A stretch of 10,511 nt of DNA. Source: Fidelibacterota bacterium. GTDB taxonomy: Bacteria; Fidelibacterota; Marinisomatia; Marinisomatales; TCS55. Within the stretch, counting starts at the first letter, position 1; each line of letters starts with the position of its first letter. Shown here one piece after another: positions 1-9,616 of this stretch. The stretch lies in the NCBI GenBank assembly GCA_002715035.1, contig PAXB01000042.1, forward strand, positions 9,870-20,380. The letters run 5' to 3'. Below the pieces are notes generated by a model, which was not told the origin of the DNA, did no database searches, and was given only the letters and a program-made list of their open reading frames with translations. The translations under genes and the position numbers were made by a program.

Positions 1-354
1 ATTGGCGGGCTTTCTCACACGCATCGATTTGAGGATTTGCCATTAACTATATCAGGAATGGTGAATATTGTTTGGGAAAGTGGAGGTAAATCAATCGATG
101 ATGACATTCATTTGGATAATCATGGGGCGAATTACCGGCTTGGTCTCAACGGCGTTTATGACAATAAAATTGCATTACGTCTTGGGAGAAATGCCATCGG
201 TTCCACCACAGGAGGTATCGGCCTTAGTTGGGAAAACCTGTCTTTAGATTATGCGTTTTTGAACGAACCATCCGGGTCCGGATTGGGAGTCTCTCACATG
301 GTGTCTTTGGCGGTTAATTCGAAATGGATTCGTCAGTATGTAGAGAAATTATAA
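1..354 (+). CDS. PorV/PorQ-like outer-membrane beta-barrel protein, 3' end only
   Basis: The reading frame is open from the first base and ends at TAA 352-354, so only the last 117 residues are seen and the true start lies to the left. A TTG at 37 could be mistaken for a start, but the frame continues upstream in the same style. The segment alternates short polar turns with amphipathic strands, as in GGIGLSWENLSLDYAF and VSHMVSLAV. This pattern is typical of the C-terminal strands of the PorV/PorQ family, outer-membrane barrels found mostly in the FCB group, some of which serve type IX secretion. No C-terminal sorting domain is visible. A role in secretion cannot be claimed from this fragment. 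It converges on the next gene with only 34 nt between the stops, and no clear terminator hairpin lies in that gap. Confidence 0.6.
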   Translation: MGGLSHTHRFEDLPLTISGMVNIVWESGGKSIDDDIHLDNHGANYRLGLNGVYDNKIALRLGRNAIGSTTGGIGLSWENLSLDYAFLNEPSGSGLGVSHMVSLAVNSKWIRQYVEKL

Positions 355-388
355 AATGATATAAAAATGCGATGAACCAAATCCGATA

Positions 389-1195
389 TTAATCTTGACG
401 ATCGTCCACAGCCTTTGATACTTTCCAATTTAAAAATCTTTTAAAAAAGAGGTTTAAAAAGGGGATAAGTCGCAGTTTTTTAGGGATATAAATCACTTTT
501 TTATTTCTTTCAATTCCCATTATAATAGAATCAGTACAGTCGTCAATGGTTATAGATTCGCTGGTATGATCCCTTTTTGACTTTCCCAACTTTTCGCCAT
601 TTGATCCAAAGGCATTTTCTCTTAACCCCGTGCCGCGAATACATCCCATAATGACATCAAGAAATTTTATTTCACCTCTCATCTCTATATCCAAAGATGC
701 CAAAAATCCTCGGAGGGCATGTTTAGAAGCGGCATAACCGGAATGATTAGGAAACCCCATTAATGCTTGGCCTGTTGAACAATTTACAATTAACCCGTTG
801 GATGATTTTAAATGGGACAGGGCTGCGTGACAACAATGAACGGCGCCCATATAATTTGTTTCCATTAATTGGCGAAAAAATCCAATATCATTTAAAGATT
901 CGAAAGGTGTCCACATGCTGATACCTGCATTCAAAACCAATGCATCTAATTTTCCAAATCGACTAATGGTCTTCTCAACCAATAATTGGCATTGATCTAT
1001 GTGAGTGATATCCGTTTGAATTGAAATTGCCGTACCCCCTTGGATTTCAATTTCATCAACGACTCGATTCAGCTTTTCTAAATTTCGAGAAGCACATATA
1101 ATTTGAGCTCCTTTTTTAGCGAGTTTCTTCGATAAAACTTCACCAATACCTGAAGAGGCACCCGTGACAATAAATATTTTTCCAGAAATGTTCAT
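389..1195 (-). CDS. Short-chain dehydrogenase/reductase, DHRS7B-like; candidate acyl/alkyl-DHAP reductase
   Basis: A 268-residue classical SDR that should reduce a carbonyl or oxidise an alcohol with NAD(P)H. Visible motifs are the cofactor loop TGASSGIG (11-18), NAG (89-91), the structural/catalytic Asn114 in METNYMG, Ser140, Tyr154 and Lys158 in YAASK. The usual PG after the active site reads MG (183-184). From memory, METNYxG, YAASKHA and the C-terminal layout resemble animal DHRS7B (PexRAP), the acyl/alkyl-DHAP reductase of ether-lipid synthesis; this is resemblance, not proven orthology. The C-terminus (about 239-255) is basic and hydrophobic and may touch the membrane. It is the last gene of the operon, 11 nt after the alkyl-DHAP synthase. 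Its ribosome site AGGAAC (1203-1208) overlaps the upstream TAG stop and lies 7 nt before the ATG, which supports this start. The SDR family call is certain; the substrate is inferred from context. Confidence 0.9.
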   Translation of the reverse strand: MNISGKIFIVTGASSGIGEVLSKKLAKKGAQIICASRNLEKLNRVVDEIEIQGGTAISIQTDITHIDQCQLLVEKTISRFGKLDALVLNAGISMWTPFESLNDIGFFRQLMETNYMGAVHCCHAALSHLKSSNGLIVNCSTGQALMGFPNHSGYAASKHALRGFLASLDIEMRGEIKFLDVIMGCIRGTGLRENAFGSNGEKLGKSKRDHTSESITIDDCTDSIIMGIERNKKVIYIPKKLRLIPFLNLFFKRFLNWKVSKAVDDRQD

Positions 1196-1206
1196 TTGGG
1201 ATGTTC

Positions 1207-2979
1207 CTAATCTGAAAATACATTATTCCGAATACCAAAAATATTCTTCGGATCATGTGCCTTTTTTATATTTTTAATTAGATCGATACTGGATTGAGAA
1301 AGGGTTTTACCCATAAAATCTTTTCTTAATTTACCTACACCATGATGATGGGAAATGGATCCGCCATTTTCCATAATGACTTTTCGAATTTCATGTTCGA
1401 TGGAACCAAATATATCTTCTGCATTTGGGATTCCTTTAACACTCATGCCCAACATAAAATATATACACACGCCCGTATGATAAATTTGTGGAATGCGATA
1501 GGACATATAAGGTTTTCCAGGGAAATTATATTTCTCATGGAGTTCATATAATTTTTCAGTTGCCGCATCGCATGTGAATTTTATTTTACTCCAAGGTACA
1601 GATGTTTCCATGGTTTCACCAATCACATGAAAATCCGTAAGAAAATCCCGAATGTATGCAATGGCGAATGTGAGCATATAGCCTCGTTTTCCATTTTCTT
1701 CACCCCCAATGATACCACCACAAGCTAAGGCCAGTTTGGATATATTATTTTCCTGATATGCCACTTCATCTTTGGTGCCTTCCATTACGAAAGTAGATGC
1801 ACACATTTGATACGGGTCATACCCTTTAATATTTAAAACCACAAATTTTTTCATGGAATCAATATACTTATGAATGCCAGTTGTTTTGGATTTTAGTGCT
1901 TGCCCAAATCGAAACTGAACATTATCTACCAGACGGACACTTGCGGGGATAAAATTGGTTTTAGAAAGTTCATAGAGGAATTTCAACCCTGTTTCCCAAT
2001 TGGGGAATACAGCAGAATTATATTTGTGTACTTCAGGCTTTTTATGGATTTTTAAAATTGCCTTTGTAATTAGCCCCAGATTTCCTTCGGACCCAAATAG
2101 AATATTTTGAGGTTTTATACCGATGGATGCGCGAATAATTGGGTCCACTTGTTCAATGGTTCCATTGGGTGAAACCATGGTTACGTTTTCAACAATATCT
2201 TCAATATTACCGTAACGGTTCTTTTTCATTCCACTGGCATTGGTAGCAATCCATCCGCCAAGGGTCGAAAGTTCAATGCTGTCCGGTTCATGTCCAACCG
2301 TAAATCCTTTTTCTCCAAGCAATTCTTCCATTCGGCTCCCTGTGATGCCTGCTTGGACGCACACCCGACGATCTTTTTCATTGATCCATTCGATTTTATC
2401 CATACGGCGCGTATCAATGGCCACAACCATTCGCGTTTCTGACTCTGGGATAATTAGGGCACTACTCACACTGGTTCCACCCCCAAAAGGGACAAGGCAT
2501 ATGTCAAATTGATCGGCCAAATTAATGAGTTGGACTGCTTCTTCTTCGGATTCGATATAAATTACCAGATCAATATTGCGTTTCACTTCAGAATAAAGCA
2601 CTTTATATACTTCTTCTGAGGTGGTTTGACCATGGCTATGGATTAGTCGATCTTCATCATTAAGGCTGTATCTATCTTCAGGGAAAGTCGATTTTACTTC
2701 ATTCATAAACGGCTCATTAATTTGGGCATCCCGAACCGGTTTATTCTCAACTTCTGGAAGCGTATCGTTGGGATCAATTATGATACCCAGCATTTCTTCT
2801 ATATAGGGAATTAAATCAGGTAGATCCGCACCGCATAATTCATAGCGGTCGCCACCCATTCTAACAGAACCGTCTTCGTTAAGAATAAATTTTGTATCTT
2901 TATATCCCCATTTATGTCCCCATGTATTATGGGTGTGGGCAAAGAACTTTTCATGTTGGGTTTTATACAATTTATCCAT
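1207..2979 (-). CDS. agps: Alkyldihydroxyacetonephosphate synthase (FAD-dependent), animal-like
   Basis: Likely catalyses exchange of the acyl chain of acyl-DHAP for a fatty alcohol, forming the ether bond of alkyl-DHAP. Numbered from the ATG at 2979 (590 residues), the order is: N-terminal KWGYKDT (23-29), HSHGQT (114-119), the PCMH-type FAD domain with PFGGGTSVS (164-172), GHEPDS with His230, GGWIATNASGMKKNRYG (241 on) and GSEGNLG (296-302), then the cap domain with VRLVDN (Arg349), AYIRD (Arg444), CIYF (Tyr507) and HHHGVGKLR with the His triplet at 544-546, ending near DPKNIFGIRN. These match residues described as catalytic in mammalian AGPS (His300, Arg419, Arg515, Tyr578 and His615-617 in guinea-pig numbering, from memory). 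The resemblance to the vertebrate enzyme is far closer than to GlcD or D-lactate dehydrogenases. An in-frame GTG at 3000 would add seven residues; I prefer 2979 because AAGGAAGAG sits 6 nt before it. It overlaps the acyltransferase stop by 8 nt. Confidence 0.93.
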   Translation of the reverse strand: MDKLYKTQHEKFFAHTHNTWGHKWGYKDTKFILNEDGSVRMGGDRYELCGADLPDLIPYIEEMLGIIIDPNDTLPEVENKPVRDAQINEPFMNEVKSTFPEDRYSLNDEDRLIHSHGQTTSEEVYKVLYSEVKRNIDLVIYIESEEEAVQLINLADQFDICLVPFGGGTSVSSALIIPESETRMVVAIDTRRMDKIEWINEKDRRVCVQAGITGSRMEELLGEKGFTVGHEPDSIELSTLGGWIATNASGMKKNRYGNIEDIVENVTMVSPNGTIEQVDPIIRASIGIKPQNILFGSEGNLGLITKAILKIHKKPEVHKYNSAVFPNWETGLKFLYELSKTNFIPASVRLVDNVQFRFGQALKSKTTGIHKYIDSMKKFVVLNIKGYDPYQMCASTFVMEGTKDEVAYQENNISKLALACGGIIGGEENGKRGYMLTFAIAYIRDFLTDFHVIGETMETSVPWSKIKFTCDAATEKLYELHEKYNFPGKPYMSYRIPQIYHTGVCIYFMLGMSVKGIPNAEDIFGSIEHEIRKVIMENGGSISHHHGVGKLRKDFMGKTLSQSSIDLIKNIKKAHDPKNIFGIRNNVFSD

Positions 2980-3718
2980 AGAATGCTCTTCCTTTTTCAC
3001 GGATTGTGTTTTCCAATTCTGTTGTCATATTCCTGGCAGCTTGATCCAGATTATCTTCCCGCGTTTCACCCAAGACGTTTTGCTGGGTAAATTGTTCTGG
3101 ATAGATCGGATCCAAGATGTGGATTTGGATAGGGGTGGGTCGCATAAAAATTTTATCTTTTGGCCACGCTTTATGAGATCCAACAACCAATGCGGGTAAG
3201 ATAGGAACATTCAGTTGGATTGCAAACTTTGCTGCTCCGATTTTGAATGCTCCCATTTCTCCAGGGATTCCTCGTGTACCTTCTGGAAACATAATTATAT
3301 TTCTATTATTGTAATTCATAAATGCATCGCATAACGCCAGTGTTTCATCGATCGAAAATTGCCGAACGCCATCCACTTTGCGGTCAATGGGAATCAAATT
3401 CATGACAATATTGACCAGAATTCGTTTAATCCGATTATCAAACCAGTAGTCTTTTGCCGCCAGCATGCCAAAATAATTGAAACTTTTATTAACGGACGCA
3501 GCCAGTAGGGCTACATCCATATGGCTATTATGGTTACAGGAATAAATGAACGAAGTATTTGGAATATTTTTCCGGCCATAGACTTTGAGTGGGGTGTAAC
3601 AAAGAAAAACCAATTTACAATAGTAGTAAAACAGCTTTTTCCAAATACGAAAAAAGGCAGGCTGTTTTTTGATCAAATAAGTATATTTTGGATTGTCAAG
3701 AACGGAAGCCTGGGCCAT
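2972..3718 (-). CDS. PlsC-family 1-acylglycerol-3-phosphate / lysophospholipid acyltransferase
   Basis: A 248-residue membrane-associated acyltransferase that moves an acyl chain from acyl-CoA or acyl-ACP to a glycerolipid hydroxyl. The family signatures are clear: motif I NHNSHMD with His63 and Asp68 (the HX4D catalytic dyad), block II GMLAAKDYWF (84-93) followed by NLIPIDR (107-113), motif III FPEGTR (144-149), which binds the phosphate, and motif IV VPILPALVVGS (171-181). A hydrophobic stretch at about 28-42 could anchor it to the inner membrane. Its ATG directly follows the TAA of the HMGR-like gene (TAAATG, no gap) and its 3' end overlaps the alkyl-DHAP synthase start, so it belongs to this operon. 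In that setting it could acylate DHAP, like animal GNPAT, to make the synthase substrate, or acylate the sn-2 position of the alkyl-glycerol phosphate afterwards. The sequence does not decide between them. Family certain, acceptor unknown. Confidence 0.9.
   Translation of the reverse strand: MAQASVLDNPKYTYLIKKQPAFFRIWKKLFYYYCKLVFLCYTPLKVYGRKNIPNTSFIYSCNHNSHMDVALLAASVNKSFNYFGMLAAKDYWFDNRIKRILVNIVMNLIPIDRKVDGVRQFSIDETLALCDAFMNYNNRNIIMFPEGTRGIPGEMGAFKIGAAKFAIQLNVPILPALVVGSHKAWPKDKIFMRPTPIQIHILDPIYPEQFTQQNVLGETREDNLDQAARNMTTELENTIREKGRAFYG
2986..2994 (-). promoter_or_regulatory. Ribosome binding site that sets the alkyl-DHAP synthase start
   Basis: On the minus strand AAGGAAGAG lies 6 nt before ATG 2979. 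If translation began at the upstream in-frame GTG (3000), this purine-rich run would be coding. Most other genes in the window lack such a good site, so its presence argues for the ATG. The site lies inside the last codons of the acyltransferase, so the two genes are probably translationally coupled. Confidence 0.6.
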
Positions 3719-4879
3719 TTACTTTCGACCGTATTTCATATGAGCCATGGCAAACGTATCCGAAGCAATGGCGGACATTAGGGAAATTTCCAACGCGAGT
3801 GTGGATGCACCAATAATTTCTGCCAATTTACGGGCGGAATAATCACCATCATTACATCCCAGGAATTCCAGATTTTGCTGCTGGGGTAGGAGGCGAGTCC
3901 CGCCACCGACGGTTCCAATGGTAAGAGAAGGAAGTGTCAATCTGCATTTTATACCGTGATCCACTTGTTCTGTCAGGAAATGTCCCATGGCATTTTCAGC
4001 CACGCATGCAGTATCCTGTCCAGTGGCCAAATAAATAGCAGTCAGCGCATTAGAAATATGGAGGTGGCAACCTGAGGTGCCGGCCATGGTGGTAATCGTG
4101 GGGCCTAACTGTTGTAATCTTTCCACATCCTTGGCGTTTATTCCCAAAAATCGTTTCATGACAGCATGGGTTAAGGTAACCTCTGCTATCACAGAATGCC
4201 CCCTTCCCATGATCATATTGCGGGAAGATGCTTTCTTATCGCTGTTGAAACCGGATTCAAGGATAAACGCATGTCCCGTTTGTTCCTTAATGTAATCACA
4301 GGCGACCTTGGCAGCCAGAGTAACCATATTTTGTCCGGCGGCATTTCCTGTATCTAAAATCATATCAAGTATGACATAATTCTGGACAGGGTATTGGTCA
4401 ATCCTTAATAATTTTCCATGCTGTGTGGTGGACTCAGCAACTTTTTTAATATCGTCATAATGTTCTTTTACCCATCGCATAAATTCAAATGAATCATTCA
4501 AATCTTCAAAAATAAAAACGGGTGCCCGAGACAGCTCTTGTTTTACATGGCGAACTCGAATGCCGCCGGATTTAGAAGAAGCATACATGCCCCGTGTCAT
4601 GGAAATAGCAAGGGTACCCTCCAATGTACAAATAGGGACGAAAAATTCACCTTTGGCATATTGACCATCCAATTGCATTGGACCAGCAACTGCCATTGGG
4701 ATTTTCATATATCCGATATAGTTTTCGATGATTCCTTTTAGCTCCTCCGGTGGATTCACAGGTGAATCTTTGTAATTAAACCCGGTATGGTCTTTAAGCC
4801 AGGAAATTCGCCGATTTTTATCTTCGGAATTATATCCGTTGGGAATTCTTGATCTTTTGTTATTTTTTTCTATAGCCAT
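3719..4879 (-). CDS. Divergent class I HMG-CoA reductase-family enzyme
   Basis: A 386-residue soluble HMGR-fold protein. HMG-CoA reductases carry out the four-electron NADPH reduction of an acyl-CoA to an alcohol (mevalonate). The class I signatures are strong: ENYIGYMKIPMAVAGP (52-67), catalytic Glu87 in CTLEG, Lys215 in SDKK, Asp289 in GQD, GTVGGGT (322-328) followed by LLPQQ, and His380 in AHM near the C-terminus. Compared by memory with human HMGR, Arg590 and Lys692 have equivalents (Arg118, Lys216), but the NADPH motif DAMGMN reads NAAGQN (179-184), the loop before the Lys pair seems one residue shorter, and Lys735, which contacts the HMG carboxylate, aligns with Gln257. The enzyme may therefore make mevalonate or may accept another acyl-CoA. 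No membrane domain is present. It is the first gene of the four-gene operon, preceded by a promoter-like gap; the GAGG before its ATG is unusually close (2 nt). Confidence 0.88.
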   Translation of the reverse strand: MAIEKNNKRSRIPNGYNSEDKNRRISWLKDHTGFNYKDSPVNPPEELKGIIENYIGYMKIPMAVAGPMQLDGQYAKGEFFVPICTLEGTLAISMTRGMYASSKSGGIRVRHVKQELSRAPVFIFEDLNDSFEFMRWVKEHYDDIKKVAESTTQHGKLLRIDQYPVQNYVILDMILDTGNAAGQNMVTLAAKVACDYIKEQTGHAFILESGFNSDKKASSRNMIMGRGHSVIAEVTLTHAVMKRFLGINAKDVERLQQLGPTITTMAGTSGCHLHISNALTAIYLATGQDTACVAENAMGHFLTEQVDHGIKCRLTLPSLTIGTVGGGTRLLPQQQNLEFLGCNDGDYSARKLAEIIGASTLALEISLMSAIASDTFAMAHMKYGRK

Positions 4880-4898
4880 AGCCTCGAATCTACTTGAT

Positions 4899-4914
4899 TT
4901 TAATTCAAATTAAA
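4899..4914. repeat. Perfect 7-2-7 inverted repeat in the leader of the HMGR-like gene
   Basis: TTTAATTCAAATTAAA has two perfect 7-bp arms around a 2-bp centre, ending about 20 nt before the ATG at 4879. A 2-base loop makes it poor as an RNA hairpin but good as a dyad for a dimeric DNA-binding protein. It lies downstream of the proposed promoter, where bound protein would block transcription. The AT-only arms mean chance occurrence is not negligible. Function is inferred from position alone. Confidence 0.4.
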
Positions 4915-4933
4915 TCATAAATAAAATACAGAC

Positions 4934-4963
4934 AAAATAGAGAACGTTCTTTAATAGTGTAAA
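4934..4963 (-). promoter_or_regulatory. Candidate promoter of the HMGR-acyltransferase-AGPS-SDR operon
   Basis: On the minus strand TTTACA (4963-4958, 5 of 6 to the -35 consensus) is separated by 18 nt from TATTTT (4939-4934, 4 of 6 to the -10 consensus). TATTTTG is also one base short of the Bacteroidetes -7 element TAnnTTTG. The site lies in the 104-nt gap between the upstream SDR stop and the HMGR-like ATG, giving a leader of roughly 45-50 nt. No other stretch of the gap scores better by eye. The call rests on motif likeness and location only. Confidence 0.4.
4941..4950. promoter_or_regulatory. 10-bp palindrome between the -35 and -10, possible operator
   Basis: AGAACGTTCT is a perfect palindrome and falls wholly inside the spacer of the candidate promoter at 4934-4963, a classic place for a repressor to bind. 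No regulator gene lies nearby and I do not recognise the site as that of a known protein. It could be a chance palindrome. Confidence 0.35.
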
Positions 4964-4983
4964 ATCATTCTGCAACCCAACGG

Positions 4984-5727
4984 TTACATTCCAAATCTTC
5001 GGAACATCCAATCCGGCGCCCATTTCATGAGGGGGATCATAAAATATTTCATTTGCCAGGGGAAAATAAATACTTTTTTTCTTTGATCTACTGCATGCAT
5101 AATTTTCTGAACCGCAACATTTGTTTCCATGAGGAATGGCATGGGGAATGCATTGTCTCCGGTCATTTCACTTTTGATAAATCCCGGGCAAACTGCTGTA
5201 AAAGAAATGCCATATTTATGAAGGGCGGTTCCCCAACCTTGACTCATATTTCGAACTGCTGCTTTGGAGCCGCTATAGGCGGCATGATGGGCCAATCCCC
5301 GAAAACTGGCCACAGAACTTATAATTGCAATTTTTCCTTTTCGTATTTCCTTCAAATGGGGGAGAAAAGGCATGACTGTGTTGGTAACACCCAGAATATT
5401 GACACTTAACACATGGTTCATTTTTTCAGCACTGCCAGAACTTAATCCATCGGGACTTCCCACACCTGCATTGGCATAAATAGTATCCATTTCTCCCGGT
5501 AGAGCAATAAAGTCATCAATGGCCTTTTTACAGTCAGATCCATTTAATACATCCACTGCATATACTTTAGTTTGTCCACCAAATTTTGAACATTGAGTTG
5601 CCACTTGATCCAGTCGATCCTTTCTTCTAGCGACCAATCCAATAAAACACCCCTGTTTTGCATAGGCATAAGCCAAATATTCGCCAATCCCACTACTTGC
5701 ACCTGTAATAAATACTTTTTTCTTCAT
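4984..5727 (-). CDS. Short-chain dehydrogenase/reductase of unknown substrate
   Basis: A 247-residue classical SDR with TGASSGIG (8-15) for NAD(P) binding, NAG (86-88), Asn110 in SVNILG, Ser138 in IISSVAS, Tyr151 and Lys155 in YSGSK, and the usual PG (181-182). ARR at 33-35, after the second strand, is compatible with NADPH preference. The C-terminal 25 residues are aromatic and hydrophobic with a few basic residues (near KYFMIPLMKWAPDWMF), which suggests membrane contact and a lipid substrate. I start at ATG 5727 because SDRs usually begin a few residues before the glycine motif. An in-frame ATG at 5772 would add 15 residues (MNALVLFIDF...) without family support, although 5727 has no good ribosome site either. 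It lies 104 nt upstream of the HMGR-like gene on the same strand, so it may feed the same lipid pathway from a separate promoter. Ketoreduction, aldehyde reduction and acyl-DHAP reduction are all possible. Confidence 0.87.
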   Translation of the reverse strand: MKKKVFITGASSGIGEYLAYAYAKQGCFIGLVARRKDRLDQVATQCSKFGGQTKVYAVDVLNGSDCKKAIDDFIALPGEMDTIYANAGVGSPDGLSSGSAEKMNHVLSVNILGVTNTVMPFLPHLKEIRKGKIAIISSVASFRGLAHHAAYSGSKAAVRNMSQGWGTALHKYGISFTAVCPGFIKSEMTGDNAFPMPFLMETNVAVQKIMHAVDQRKKVFIFPWQMKYFMIPLMKWAPDWMFRRFGM

Positions 5728-5828
5728 GGTTGAATTTAGGGAAAAATCAATAAAAAGAACCAACGCATTCATTGGAATACAATATATAAAAAGTGTAAAT
5801 TTACCGGCTCTTCTCAGAGCGAAATATT
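5728..5828. promoter_or_regulatory. Divergent intergenic region with palindrome and small hairpin
   Basis: This 101-nt AT-rich gap must carry the promoters for the leftward SDR and the rightward yicC cluster. I could not pick convincing -35/-10 pairs on either strand; TACAAT (5778-5783) and TATAAA (5785-5790) are -10-like on the plus strand but lack a partner at the right distance. GTAAATTTAC (5795-5804) is a perfect 10-bp palindrome. GCTCT/AGAGC (5807-5811 and 5816-5820) can form a 5-bp stem with a 4-base loop just before the yicC ATG, where a Shine-Dalgarno sequence would be expected and none is clear. Confidence 0.4.
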
Positions 5829-6689
5829 ATGATTCAAAGTATGACAGGATATGGCCGAGGTGTTACCGGAAAAGGTGCTGGTAAAGTTATCGTCTTAATC
5901 AGGGCGGTGAATGGCCGGTTTCTTGAAGTTAAAATCCGTGGACTTGATATTGATCCTTCCGATGATAAAAAAATCAGGGATATTATTTCACAAAATCTCA
6001 TCAGAGGTACGGTTCATGTAAATTTTGAGATGGAAGGAAATGGTCAGTATCAGACCCTTTCTTTTAACAAAGATCGGTTTGAAGCCATTGAAAGCATTTT
6101 ACTTAATATTCAAAAAGATTATGGCCGTCATTTGGATATGGGTGACATTGTGAATGCCAACGACCTGTTTACGCATGTGGATATAGATTCTCCTGAATCA
6201 AAACTATTAATCAAAGCAGTAGAAAATGCCTGTGATGAAGTGACACAAATGCGTAAGGCTGAAGGGGAGAAACTCAAAAAAGATTTTGAAGATCGGTTAT
6301 CCATTCTGGAAAAAGTTTTAAATCAAGTTGAAAAAGAATTACCAAAGGAATTTCAAAAACGGGAAAAACGCTACAAATCTCGTATTGCAGAATTATTAGA
6401 TGGATCCCTCGTAGATGAGAATCGCATTGCCCAAGAAATTGCCATGTTAGCTGAAAAAGCAGATGTAACAGAAGAAACGGTTCGATTAAAAAGCCATTTT
6501 CAACAATTTAAATCATTATTAAGCGAAAAGGGTTCTGCAGGAAAAAGGTTGAATTTTCTCCTTCAGGAAATAAGTAGAGAGATTAATACTATAGGTTCAA
6601 AAAGTTCATCTGACCTTATTGTAAATCATGTAATTACATTAAAGGATGAAGCTGAAAAAATGCGTGAACAGATTCAAAATATATTATAA
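5829..6689 (+). CDS. yicC: YicC/YloC family endoribonuclease
   Basis: A 286-residue protein, the normal family length. Members are reported to be endoribonucleases involved in RNA turnover (for example of regulatory RNA in E. coli) and were first known as a stress-induced protein family. The start MIQSMTGYG (1-9) is the hallmark of the family and fixes the start codon. The N-terminal domain contains AVNGRFLEV (26-34), the middle is a charged helical region with RKAEGEKLKKDF (142-153) and a likely coiled coil at about 150-190, and the C-terminal DUF1732 block holds GKRLNFLLQE (238-247), INTIGSKS (252-259) and a final KMREQIQNIL. It is the first gene of the rightward cluster and ends 3 nt before gmk in the same frame; yicC-gmk adjacency is common in bacteria. 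No good Shine-Dalgarno site precedes it. Confidence 0.94.
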   Translation: MIQSMTGYGRGVTGKGAGKVIVLIRAVNGRFLEVKIRGLDIDPSDDKKIRDIISQNLIRGTVHVNFEMEGNGQYQTLSFNKDRFEAIESILLNIQKDYGRHLDMGDIVNANDLFTHVDIDSPESKLLIKAVENACDEVTQMRKAEGEKLKKDFEDRLSILEKVLNQVEKELPKEFQKREKRYKSRIAELLDGSLVDENRIAQEIAMLAEKADVTEETVRLKSHFQQFKSLLSEKGSAGKRLNFLLQEISREINTIGSKSSSDLIVNHVITLKDEAEKMREQIQNIL

Positions 6690-8251: not shown

Positions 8252-9616
8252 ATGGCAAAGAAAAACGAATTAAATTTAACGGTTCAGCCCCAAGCTTTGG
8301 AGGCTGAACAAGCTGTATTGGGGTCTATGCTTACCACCAAAGAAGCTGTAAGTAAAGCCATACAATGGGTGTCTGCCAATCAGTTTTATAAAGATGCTCA
8401 TGTTCGCATTTTTTCTTGTATGAGTGATTTGTTTGACAAGGGTGAGCCTATTGATGCTATATCCGTCGCGGATCGTTTAAAGAAGAAAAAAGAATTAGAA
8501 GGGGTTGGGGGTGCATATTATATCACTGGATTGGCGGAATCGGTTCCCACAACAGCCAATGTTGAACATTATGCAAAAATTATATTAGAAAAGCACCTTT
8601 TACGAAAATTAATTCAAGTCGCCCATGAAGTATCAAAAGATGCTTTCGAAGATTCTCAAGATGTGGATGATATTTTGGATTCGGCTGAATCCGCCATTTT
8701 CAACATTTCTGAAAAAAGATTACGGGGAGGATTCCGGCACATTGATCCAATTCTCCATCAGACTTTTGAAGAATTGGATAAAATTGCATCCAAACCGGGG
8801 AGTGTGACGGGGGTTCCTTCAGGACTCATTGATTTAGATGACATAACATCCGGTTTCCATCCCGGGGAATTGATTATCGTCGCAGGCCGTCCCGGTATGG
8901 GGAAAACGGCCTTGGCATTATCCATGGGCCGGAATGCAGCTGTTATGGATAAAACAGGTGTAGGAATTTTTAGTCTTGAAATGGCGAATCATCAATTGGC
9001 CATGCGATTGTTATGCGCTGAAGGGCGAGTGGATAGTCATTTGGTTCGTACTGGAAAATTACCAAAAGCCCAATGGAAAAATTTAAGTATTGCTGTGGGA
9101 AACCTAGCAGAGGCACCCATTTATCTTGATGATACACCGGGAATGTCTGTATTGGAAGTACGGGCAAAATCTCGGCGGTTAAAAGCAGAACATGATATTG
9201 GTTTAATTATCGTGGATTATATTCAGCTCATGACGGGTCCAAAAGGGGCTGAAAGCCGGCAGCAGGAAATTTCTCAGATTTCTCGATCATTAAAAGCATT
9301 GGCAAAAGAAATTGAAGTACCTGTCCTTGGATTGTCCCAGTTATCCCGTGCCGTTGAAAGTAGAAGCGACCGCCGTCCCCAGTTATCTGATCTTCGTGAA
9401 TCAGGTGCGATTGAGCAGGACGCTGATGTGGTTATCTTTTTATATCGGCCTTGGGTTTATTCCCACGAAGACGAGGATCGGGGGAAGGCAGAAATTATAG
9501 TGTCGAAACAGCGAAACGGACCGACCGGAATTGTGGAGGCCACATTTGTTGATCGGTTTGCTCGTTTTGAAAATATGTCGGCTTTTGCTGATATGGAATC
9601 TGAATCTCCATTCTAA
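8252..9616 (+). CDS. dnaB: Replicative DNA helicase DnaB
   Basis: The hexameric helicase that unwinds DNA ahead of the replication fork and recruits primase. At 454 residues it is full length. The N-terminal helical domain (about 12-115) begins with QPQALEAEQAVLGSML and contains GGAYYITGLAESVPTTANV; a linker leads to the RecA-like motor. There, TGVPSGLIDLDDITSGFHPGE-type sequence (186-206) precedes Walker A GRPGMGKTA (212-220, Lys218), SLEM with catalytic Glu243, Walker B IIVDYIQLM (319-327, Asp322), LSQLSR (361-366), a DLRESGAIEQDAD stretch (380-392) and KQRNGPTG (419-426) with the arginine/lysine finger. No intein interrupts the Walker motifs, a frequent site of insertion in dnaB. The gene starts 5 nt after the glycosylase and its TAA shares a base with the next ATG (TAATG), so translation is probably coupled to the relA homologue. 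Confidence 0.97.
   Translation: MAKKNELNLTVQPQALEAEQAVLGSMLTTKEAVSKAIQWVSANQFYKDAHVRIFSCMSDLFDKGEPIDAISVADRLKKKKELEGVGGAYYITGLAESVPTTANVEHYAKIILEKHLLRKLIQVAHEVSKDAFEDSQDVDDILDSAESAIFNISEKRLRGGFRHIDPILHQTFEELDKIASKPGSVTGVPSGLIDLDDITSGFHPGELIIVAGRPGMGKTALALSMGRNAAVMDKTGVGIFSLEMANHQLAMRLLCAEGRVDSHLVRTGKLPKAQWKNLSIAVGNLAEAPIYLDDTPGMSVLEVRAKSRRLKAEHDIGLIIVDYIQLMTGPKGAESRQQEISQISRSLKALAKEIEVPVLGLSQLSRAVESRSDRRPQLSDLRESGAIEQDADVVIFLYRPWVYSHEDEDRGKAEIIVSKQRNGPTGIVEATFVDRFARFENMSAFADMESESPF

Follow-up and report, generated by a model that had tools for sequence, protein, structure and literature searches.

Can four neighbouring genes of an uncultured marine bacterium encode a route to ether phospholipids, and which of them would then supply the fatty alcohol? 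The question arises from a 10,511-nt stretch of DNA of a Fidelibacterota bacterium (assembly GCA_002715035.1, contig PAXB01000042.1, positions 9,870 to 20,380; hereafter the window), in which a gene for alkyl-dihydroxyacetone-phosphate synthase (AGPS) lies among genes for a reductase, an acyltransferase and a dehydrogenase. In animals, ether-lipid synthesis starts in the peroxisome with FAR1, GNPAT, AGPS and DHRS7B/PexRAP. A sequence-only reading of the window had proposed a compact bacterial operon of this kind, built around an animal-like AGPS, and the present analysis supports it: the AGPS has 40% identity to its mammalian counterpart, and its gene is linked to that of the reductase in 52 of the 54 AGPS-containing genomes of the phylum. 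The four genes are real, their arrangement is conserved, and together they form a coherent predicted operon that, judging from the sequences, very probably encodes a route to 1-alkyl ether phospholipids that depends on dihydroxyacetone phosphate (DHAP). The reductase resembles FcrA, a homologue of 3-hydroxy-3-methylglutaryl-CoA (HMG-CoA) reductase (HMGR) named by Grossi et al. 2025 (PMC11948995; this paper, PMC9131029 and PMC11868695 are cited from excerpts). The four genes are:

3719..4879, minus strand: HMGR-family protein of the FcrA type, predicted alcohol-forming fatty acyl-CoA reductase, 386 aa
2972..3718, minus strand: PlsC-type acyltransferase, predicted DHAP and/or sn-2 acyltransferase, 248 aa
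1207..3000, minus strand: alkyl-DHAP (alkylglycerone-phosphate) synthase AGPS, 597 aa from a GTG start at 3000 or 590 aa from an ATG start at 2979
389..1195, minus strand: short-chain dehydrogenase/reductase (SDR), predicted alkyl/acyl-DHAP reductase, 268 aa

All four open reading frames (ORFs) are present on the minus strand with the tight junctions that had been described: 0 nt between the HMGR gene and plsC, an overlap of 8 nt between plsC and the AGPS gene when the ATG start is used (29 nt with the GTG start), and a gap of 11 nt between the AGPS and SDR genes. The corresponding Pfam families, from the HMGR gene onwards, are HMG-CoA_red, Acyltransferase, FAD_binding_4 with FAD-oxidase_C, and adh_short. 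Below, G numbers denote genomes (G000 being the window's genome) and L numbers denote fetched loci.

The HMGR-family reductase

The label 'acyl-CoA reductase-family' given earlier to the 3719..4879 protein is too vague: the protein belongs specifically to the HMGR family, is of the FcrA type and is not a homologue of the FAR-type fatty acyl-CoA reductases. It matches PF00368 (HMG-CoA_red) with an E-value of 2e-100, the domain match beginning at residue 23, and its closest solved structure is the HMGR 6hr7 (E 4e-79). With the NADPH-type model TIGR00533 it scores 287 bits, versus 48 bits with the degradative model TIGR00532.

In an alignment with human and archaeal HMGRs, the catalytic tetrad equivalent to human E559, K691, D767 and H866 is kept in all 35 copies from the phylum, including that of the window. 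The substrate pocket is changed at three positions. Human K735, which we take from HMGR structures to be the Lys that forms a salt bridge with the HMG carboxylate, and which we assume to be the residue printed as Lys795 in the FcrA paper, is not a Lys in any of the 35 copies, the residues found there being G, F, Y, L or S. At the position of human S684 the copies have Glu (31) or Asp (4), and at that of human L862 they have Phe (19) or Trp (16). The window protein itself carries S684→E and L862→F, and at position 735 it has G in this alignment or L in a larger one of 83 rows. In the 83-row alignment, human HMGR, 6hr7 and all 8 archaeal loci have S684, K735 and L862, while the 52 AGPS-adjacent rows (51 loci plus the window) have E (50) or D (2) at 684 and F or W at 862, and keep the tetrad save for one ambiguous letter (X at E559 in L085). 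In a phylogenetic tree, from which L116 (short contig) and L127 (fragment) were omitted, the AGPS-linked HMGRs are separated from the canonical archaeal and human enzymes by a 100/100 branch.

These pocket changes are the ones by which FcrA was reported to differ from HMGR, with Glu instead of S684, the Lys replaced by a 'generally small' residue and a 'bulky' residue at 862, which is Trp in N. pharaonis (PMC11948995), and the window protein shows this FcrA signature. Purified Pb-FcrA uses NADPH without reducing HMG-CoA and is not inhibited by simvastatin, and its expression in E. coli yields C16 alcohol (PMC11948995). Reference sequences of the haloarchaeal FcrA were not found among 25 listed of 45 plasmid records.

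One genome offers an independent view of the reductase slot. G193 contains the PlsC-AGPS-SDR gene array without an HMGR gene, and the slot, which overlaps plsC, is occupied by the gene for a 563-aa fatty acyl-CoA reductase (FAR) with NAD_binding_4 and Sterile domains (PF07993 and PF03015; PDB match 7eoz, E 2e-75). Here one conserved slot has been filled by a non-orthologous enzyme, which of all the genomic clues points most strongly to fatty-alcohol supply as the function of the slot. In the planctomycete G546, too, the gene of an animal-like AGPS lies beside that of a NAD_binding_4 protein, which is cut by the contig edge. Because the pocket residues, the clade, the operon context and the FAR replacement point the same way, there is a strong case that the 3719..4879 protein is a predicted FcrA-type reductase, converting fatty acyl-CoA to fatty alcohol.

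Two further groups of sequences attracted attention. Ten rows, mostly from Riflebacteria (L129-L133, L137-L139, L144 and L147), combine E684 and F862 in frames of about 1000 aa with no AGPS nearby; these are possibly FcrA proteins with a large N-terminal region. In L045 (G189), at a contig end, the first 150 aa of the operon's HMGR frame are repeated at 8763-9212 with 98% identity, as a tandem copy or an assembly artefact.

Conservation of the gene order

Recurrence of the operon was assessed in 245 genomes of Fidelibacterota, which we take to be the same phylum as Marinisomatota. AGPS (E ≤ 1e-30) was detected in 58 of these genomes, and in 54 after four weak matches (G001, G004, G025 and G157; 28-32% identity) had been dropped; PF00368 HMGR was present in 53. 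Both occur together in 52 genomes, AGPS alone in two (G140, where it is truncated at a contig end, and G193), HMGR alone in one (G023) and neither in 190 (Fisher p 1e-49, which is not a clean test since the species are related). In 51 of the 52 genomes with both, the two genes are on one contig, always 698-898 nt apart, which leaves room for plsC; in the 52nd, G144, a piece of the HMGR gene lies beside plsC at a contig end. The 30 best-scoring AGPS loci of the phylum all show the order HMGR-PlsC-AGPS-SDR, so the arrangement is not due to chance, and 32 of 40 longer or additional loci show it as well. The eight exceptions comprise five contig ends (L058 and L061-L064), L047 (G193), L048 (G023) and L070 (G157). 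The distribution is patchy; in the window's own genus, for instance, 7 of 13 genomes have AGPS. No additional conserved partner of the operon emerged, since the commonest flanking families reach just 8 of 38 phylum loci.

The neighbourhood also recurs elsewhere among bacteria. The named genomes nearest to that of the window belong to Candidatus Neomarinimicrobiota, of the phylum Fidelibacterota. Among the best 80 of at least 562 HMGR relatives in named genomes, an AGPS match was present in the stretch read for 51, of which 35 are from Fidelibacterota (some titled just 'bacterium' and assigned by their nesting in the tree) and 16 from other groups. The full four-gene order is present in 11 of these 16: two Ignavibacteria, three metagenome-assembled genomes (MAGs) labelled Akkermansia, two Planctomycetota, Caldithrix, two Gammaproteobacteria and one further bacterium. 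Only the SDR is missing in the gammaproteobacterial L107, which reaches a contig end, and in the planctomycete L123. Two Legionellales have the order PlsC-AGPS-HMGR with no SDR match, the AGPS of one (L115) being split over two overlapping frames, and one Spirochaetaceae has only HMGR-AGPS. Adjacency of these genes is therefore not peculiar to the window's genome, given the linkage in 52 of 54 AGPS genomes and in other phyla.

Around the planctomycete G251, whose locus L119 contains the operon, an AGPS-like gene was found in 20 of 294 genomes (21 matches). Among 15 further regions of this set, the complete operon is found in one (G382) and a FAR neighbour in another, and 13 have none of FcrA, FAR or PlsC by BLAST; a Pfam scan of the neighbours covered six of these 13, and the five weakest AGPS matches were left out. 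In L178-L180 of the same set, distant AGPS-like genes lie beside YegS/diacylglycerol-kinase-like and/or glycerophosphate-oxidase-like genes, an arrangement that perhaps belongs to another lipid pathway.

The acyltransferase, AGPS and SDR proteins

The 2972..3718 protein had been called a PlsC-type acyltransferase, and this description is borne out by its match to PF01553 (E 2e-19), by the PlsC/AGPAT models and by a weak match to the PlsC structure 5kym (E 3e-12); with TIGR00530 it scores 65 bits, below the cut-off of 103 bits. The HX4D and EGTR motifs are visible in its translation, and a loose motif test detects both in 87 of the 89 PlsC-type ORFs, which are partly redundant. As regards specific similarity to GNPAT, its profile and PDB matches were limited to the broad PF01553 and PlsC/AGPAT models.

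The 1207..3000 protein is aligned by phmmer with the mammalian AGPS structure 4bby at an E-value of 1e-147. Comparison with guinea-pig and Dictyostelium AGPS reveals that it keeps H300, D303, T309, R419, R515, Y578 and HHH615-617, nine positions that we presume to represent the active site, and for these the earlier statement that every AGPS catalytic motif is present holds. All nine are kept in 81 of 83 partly redundant bacterial rows, the exceptions being L122 (T309→S) and L070, one of the weak matches dropped above. In a tree of 39 chosen rows, a 100/100 branch separates two AGPS types, both of which are found in this type of operon, with one eukaryotic sequence on each side (only two eukaryotes were included, on long branches); one type is 37-45% identical to guinea-pig AGPS, the other 35-43% to Dictyostelium AGPS. 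The AGPS type switches at least three times along the HMGR tree, and the linkage of HMGR and AGPS therefore seems to have outlived replacement of the AGPS. A second full-length AGPS is encoded on contig C11 of G117, besides the operon copy on contig C24.

The 389..1195 protein is a typical SDR (PF00106, E 2e-46) that scores 237 bits with the NCBIfam model PRK06181, above the cut-off of 215 bits; PRK06181 is likewise the best family for the SDR of an Ignavibacteria operon (L111, 287 bits). Its PDB matches are general SDRs, including 11beta-HSD1. Its earlier designation as DHRS7B-like thus stands at the level of the SDR subfamily and no closer.

Proposed pathway and alternative explanations

HMGR is a four-electron reductase that converts a thioester to an alcohol, and AGPS needs a fatty alcohol as donor. 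In the proposed pathway, the FcrA-type enzyme would reduce a long-chain acyl-CoA to a fatty alcohol with two NADPH, the chemistry of HMGR having been moved onto a fatty substrate; the case for this step is strong. Acyl-DHAP would be formed by an acyltransferase, most simply the operon's PlsC, although this protein may instead act at the sn-2 position, and confidence in this assignment is moderate. AGPS would then exchange the acyl group for the fatty alcohol to give alkyl-DHAP, a step strongly indicated by homology and by the conserved active-site residues. Finally, with moderate confidence because pathway logic suggests it, the SDR would reduce alkyl-DHAP to 1-alkyl-glycerol-3-phosphate, which can enter phospholipid synthesis. 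To our knowledge, none of the four steps needs oxygen, and the description of the route as 'aerobic-style' is apt for the lineage of its chemistry but not as a statement of oxygen requirement.

The same pathway could operate with PlsC as the sn-2 acyltransferase for 1-alkyl-glycerol-3-phosphate and with the acyl-DHAP enzyme encoded elsewhere, an arrangement that we regard as quite possible, if somewhat less so than its opposite. PlsC-type proteins, to which the TIGR00530 and 5kym matches point, are typically sn-2 acyltransferases, and mammals have separate enzymes in GNPAT and AGPAT. On the other hand, plsC sits between the FcrA and AGPS genes, and the AGPS operon of M. xanthus pairs AGPS with a protein that is both FAR1-like and GNPAT-like (PMC9131029).

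The product would more readily be an alkyl ether than a plasmalogen (vinyl ether) as in animals, which is an improbable outcome of the operon. Genomes with candidate vinyl-ether enzymes do exist in a set of 55 (the 54 AGPS genomes plus G023): PF10520 (CarF/PEDS1; cut-off 26 bits) occurs in eight, strongly in G193 (152 bits) and at 47-51 bits in seven f30 genomes, and PF09989, which we associate with PlsA/Ger-type proteins, occurs in nine, in frames of 1188-1447 aa. The two families were nevertheless not found in 46 and 45, respectively, of the 54 AGPS genomes, many of which are incomplete, and neither was found in the 76%-complete G000. For the window's organism a plasmalogen end product is thus unsupported, the plasmalogen reading went too far, and an alkyl (plasmanyl) ether lipid is expected.

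A true HMGR that makes mevalonate, so that the cluster would join isoprenoid and lipid synthesis, for example in isoprenoid ethers, is suggested by the strong family match and the intact tetrad, but is very improbable. Against it stand the absence of the carboxylate-binding Lys from all phylum copies and their 100/100 separation from archaeal and human HMGR. Mevalonate-diphosphate decarboxylase was above cut-off in none of the 54 AGPS genomes, and Dxr of the methylerythritol phosphate pathway is present in 50 of them (226 of the 245 phylum genomes), the four without it being 58-81% complete. HMG-CoA synthase was likewise above cut-off in none of the 54, nor in any of the 55 (weak matches in 15 genomes, the frames being 329-355 aa long in 14), a weakly controlled negative since G023 scored none either. 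G023 has the sole phylum HMGR that is not tied to AGPS, and this gene lies 1.2 kb from a mevalonate decarboxylase gene, the only one above cut-off in the 55 genomes. The G023 HMGR (L048) is divergent and lies in a 758-aa reading frame; the genome has Dxr too. A mevalonate role of the operon's HMGR homologue is therefore rejected for Fidelibacterota. Outside the phylum such a role could still apply, because mevalonate decarboxylase is above cut-off in 3 of the 15 AGPS-linked genomes searched, out of 16, namely the Spirochaetaceae and both Legionellales.

Nearly as improbable is that the alcohol made by the FcrA-type enzyme goes into wax esters or some other neutral lipid, with the neighbouring genes serving ordinary acyl-lipid synthesis. 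Wax-ester synthesis is the use tested for FcrA (PMC11948995). However, AGPS needs fatty alcohol, and in 51 of the 52 genomes with both enzymes a single gene lies between the two; the wax-ester synthase WS/DGAT (TIGR02946) was found in none of the 55 genomes, although this negative is weakly controlled, none of 14 control genomes having passed the cut-off either.

Several observations weigh against the proposed alkyl-lipid route, or against its exclusive association with FcrA-type enzymes. The TIGR00533 score of the reductase lies below the cut-off for class-I HMGR (287 of 442 bits), which fits divergence but names nothing. The pocket signature is not all-or-none: the AGPS-adjacent L122 aligns a Lys at 735, and L136, L140, L141 and L145 are mixed (S684, no Lys735, Trp862). 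FcrA-type genes without AGPS in the stretch read are known from L102, L103, L104, L108, L124 and L127, five of them full-length and inside the AGPS-linked clade and the sixth (L127) a fragment outside the tree. The FAR replacement was seen in one genome of the phylum, the second AGPS-FAR pair (G546) being cut by a contig edge, and the window's genome (1.15 Mb) is 76% complete. Furthermore, the ether lipids of M. xanthus fell only slightly when its AGPS gene was disrupted (PMC9131029), and homologues of such genes need not mean that the lipids are made (PMC11868695).

As to the place of the operon in the cell, PlsY is present in 31 of the 55 genomes, including G000, so the operon appears to give the window's organism an additional pathway alongside the standard one. 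In family f13, leaving aside genus g31, PlsY was not found in 19 genomes that carry the operon; these include two that are 93-96% complete, and G114 and G139 are examples. That the operon is the sole glycerolipid entry in these 19 genomes, with the sn-1 chain always added via DHAP and largely as an ether with an HMGR-derived alcohol, is a speculative and rather unlikely idea. PlsY was not found in 6 of 14 control genomes either, and its absence alone therefore means little; PlsB and other acyltransferases were not searched.

Genes flanking the operon

Upstream of the operon, 104 nt away and oriented away from yicC, lies another SDR gene, whose membership of the operon is doubtful:

4984..5772, minus strand: second SDR (PF00106, E 4e-44)

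It is found at the equivalent place only in the two closest relatives (L033 and L034; L071 and L072 are apparently from the same genomes). The opposite strand of the window encodes YicC and a family-4 uracil-DNA glycosylase and, as recognized by eye only, gmk, dnaB and a relA-like gene. A promoter and terminator scan of positions 300-6000 gave no more sites than shuffled sequences.

Implications and comparison with known systems

If the proposal is correct, ether-lipid synthesis becomes a second natural role of FcrA, to which a compact genetic unit of uncultured marine bacteria ties it, and the operon offers four genes whose joint expression could yield alkyl ether lipids. In bacteria, an annotation as HMG-CoA reductase does not by itself imply a mevalonate pathway. 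The presence of two AGPS types in one operon type, one nearer the mammalian and the other nearer the Dictyostelium enzyme, makes a bacterial ancestry of eukaryotic AGPS testable.

The animal route has the same reaction logic, and the active-site residues of AGPS are common to both. Unlike the animal route, the window combines an HMGR-type alcohol supply with a PlsC-type acyltransferase in one operon and without an organelle. Like the FcrA proteins already described, the window reductase is of the class-I HMGR family, with the tetrad kept, Glu at 684, the Lys replaced and a bulky residue at 862, and most FcrA genomes likewise have no mevalonate pathway (PMC11948995). The enzyme of Ca. Promineifilum breve differs in that it was studied for wax esters, has an N-terminal extension and is encoded nine genes away from AGPS (PMC11948995), whereas the window FcrA, with 386 aa, is the first gene product of a tight AGPS operon. 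A role of FcrA in ether-lipid synthesis has been suggested because one species has a PlsC-like gene next to fcrA and another has an AGPS gene nine genes off (PMC11948995); the main text of that paper contains none of the words Marinimicrobia, Fidelibacter and Planctomycet, and no published description of an FcrA-PlsC-AGPS-SDR operon was found in the titles and abstract openings of the matches listed.

AGPS homologues have been reported in 49 of 134 Marinisomatota MAGs from the Black Sea (PMC11868695). One of the closest described arrangements, MXAN_1676-1674 of M. xanthus, is an AGPS operon in which a single fusion protein combines a FAR1-like reductase with a GNPAT-like acyltransferase (PMC9131029). 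The window instead encodes a stand-alone reductase derived from HMGR, and its dehydrogenase belongs to the classical SDRs. Myxobacterial ElbD and clostridial PlsA/PlsR also make bacterial ether lipids, but are different enzymes (PMC9131029, PMC11868695). FcrA, bacterial AGPS and a myxobacterial operon of AGPS and FAR are thus already known, and what appears to be new is that FcrA is joined to the AGPS route in one predicted operon.

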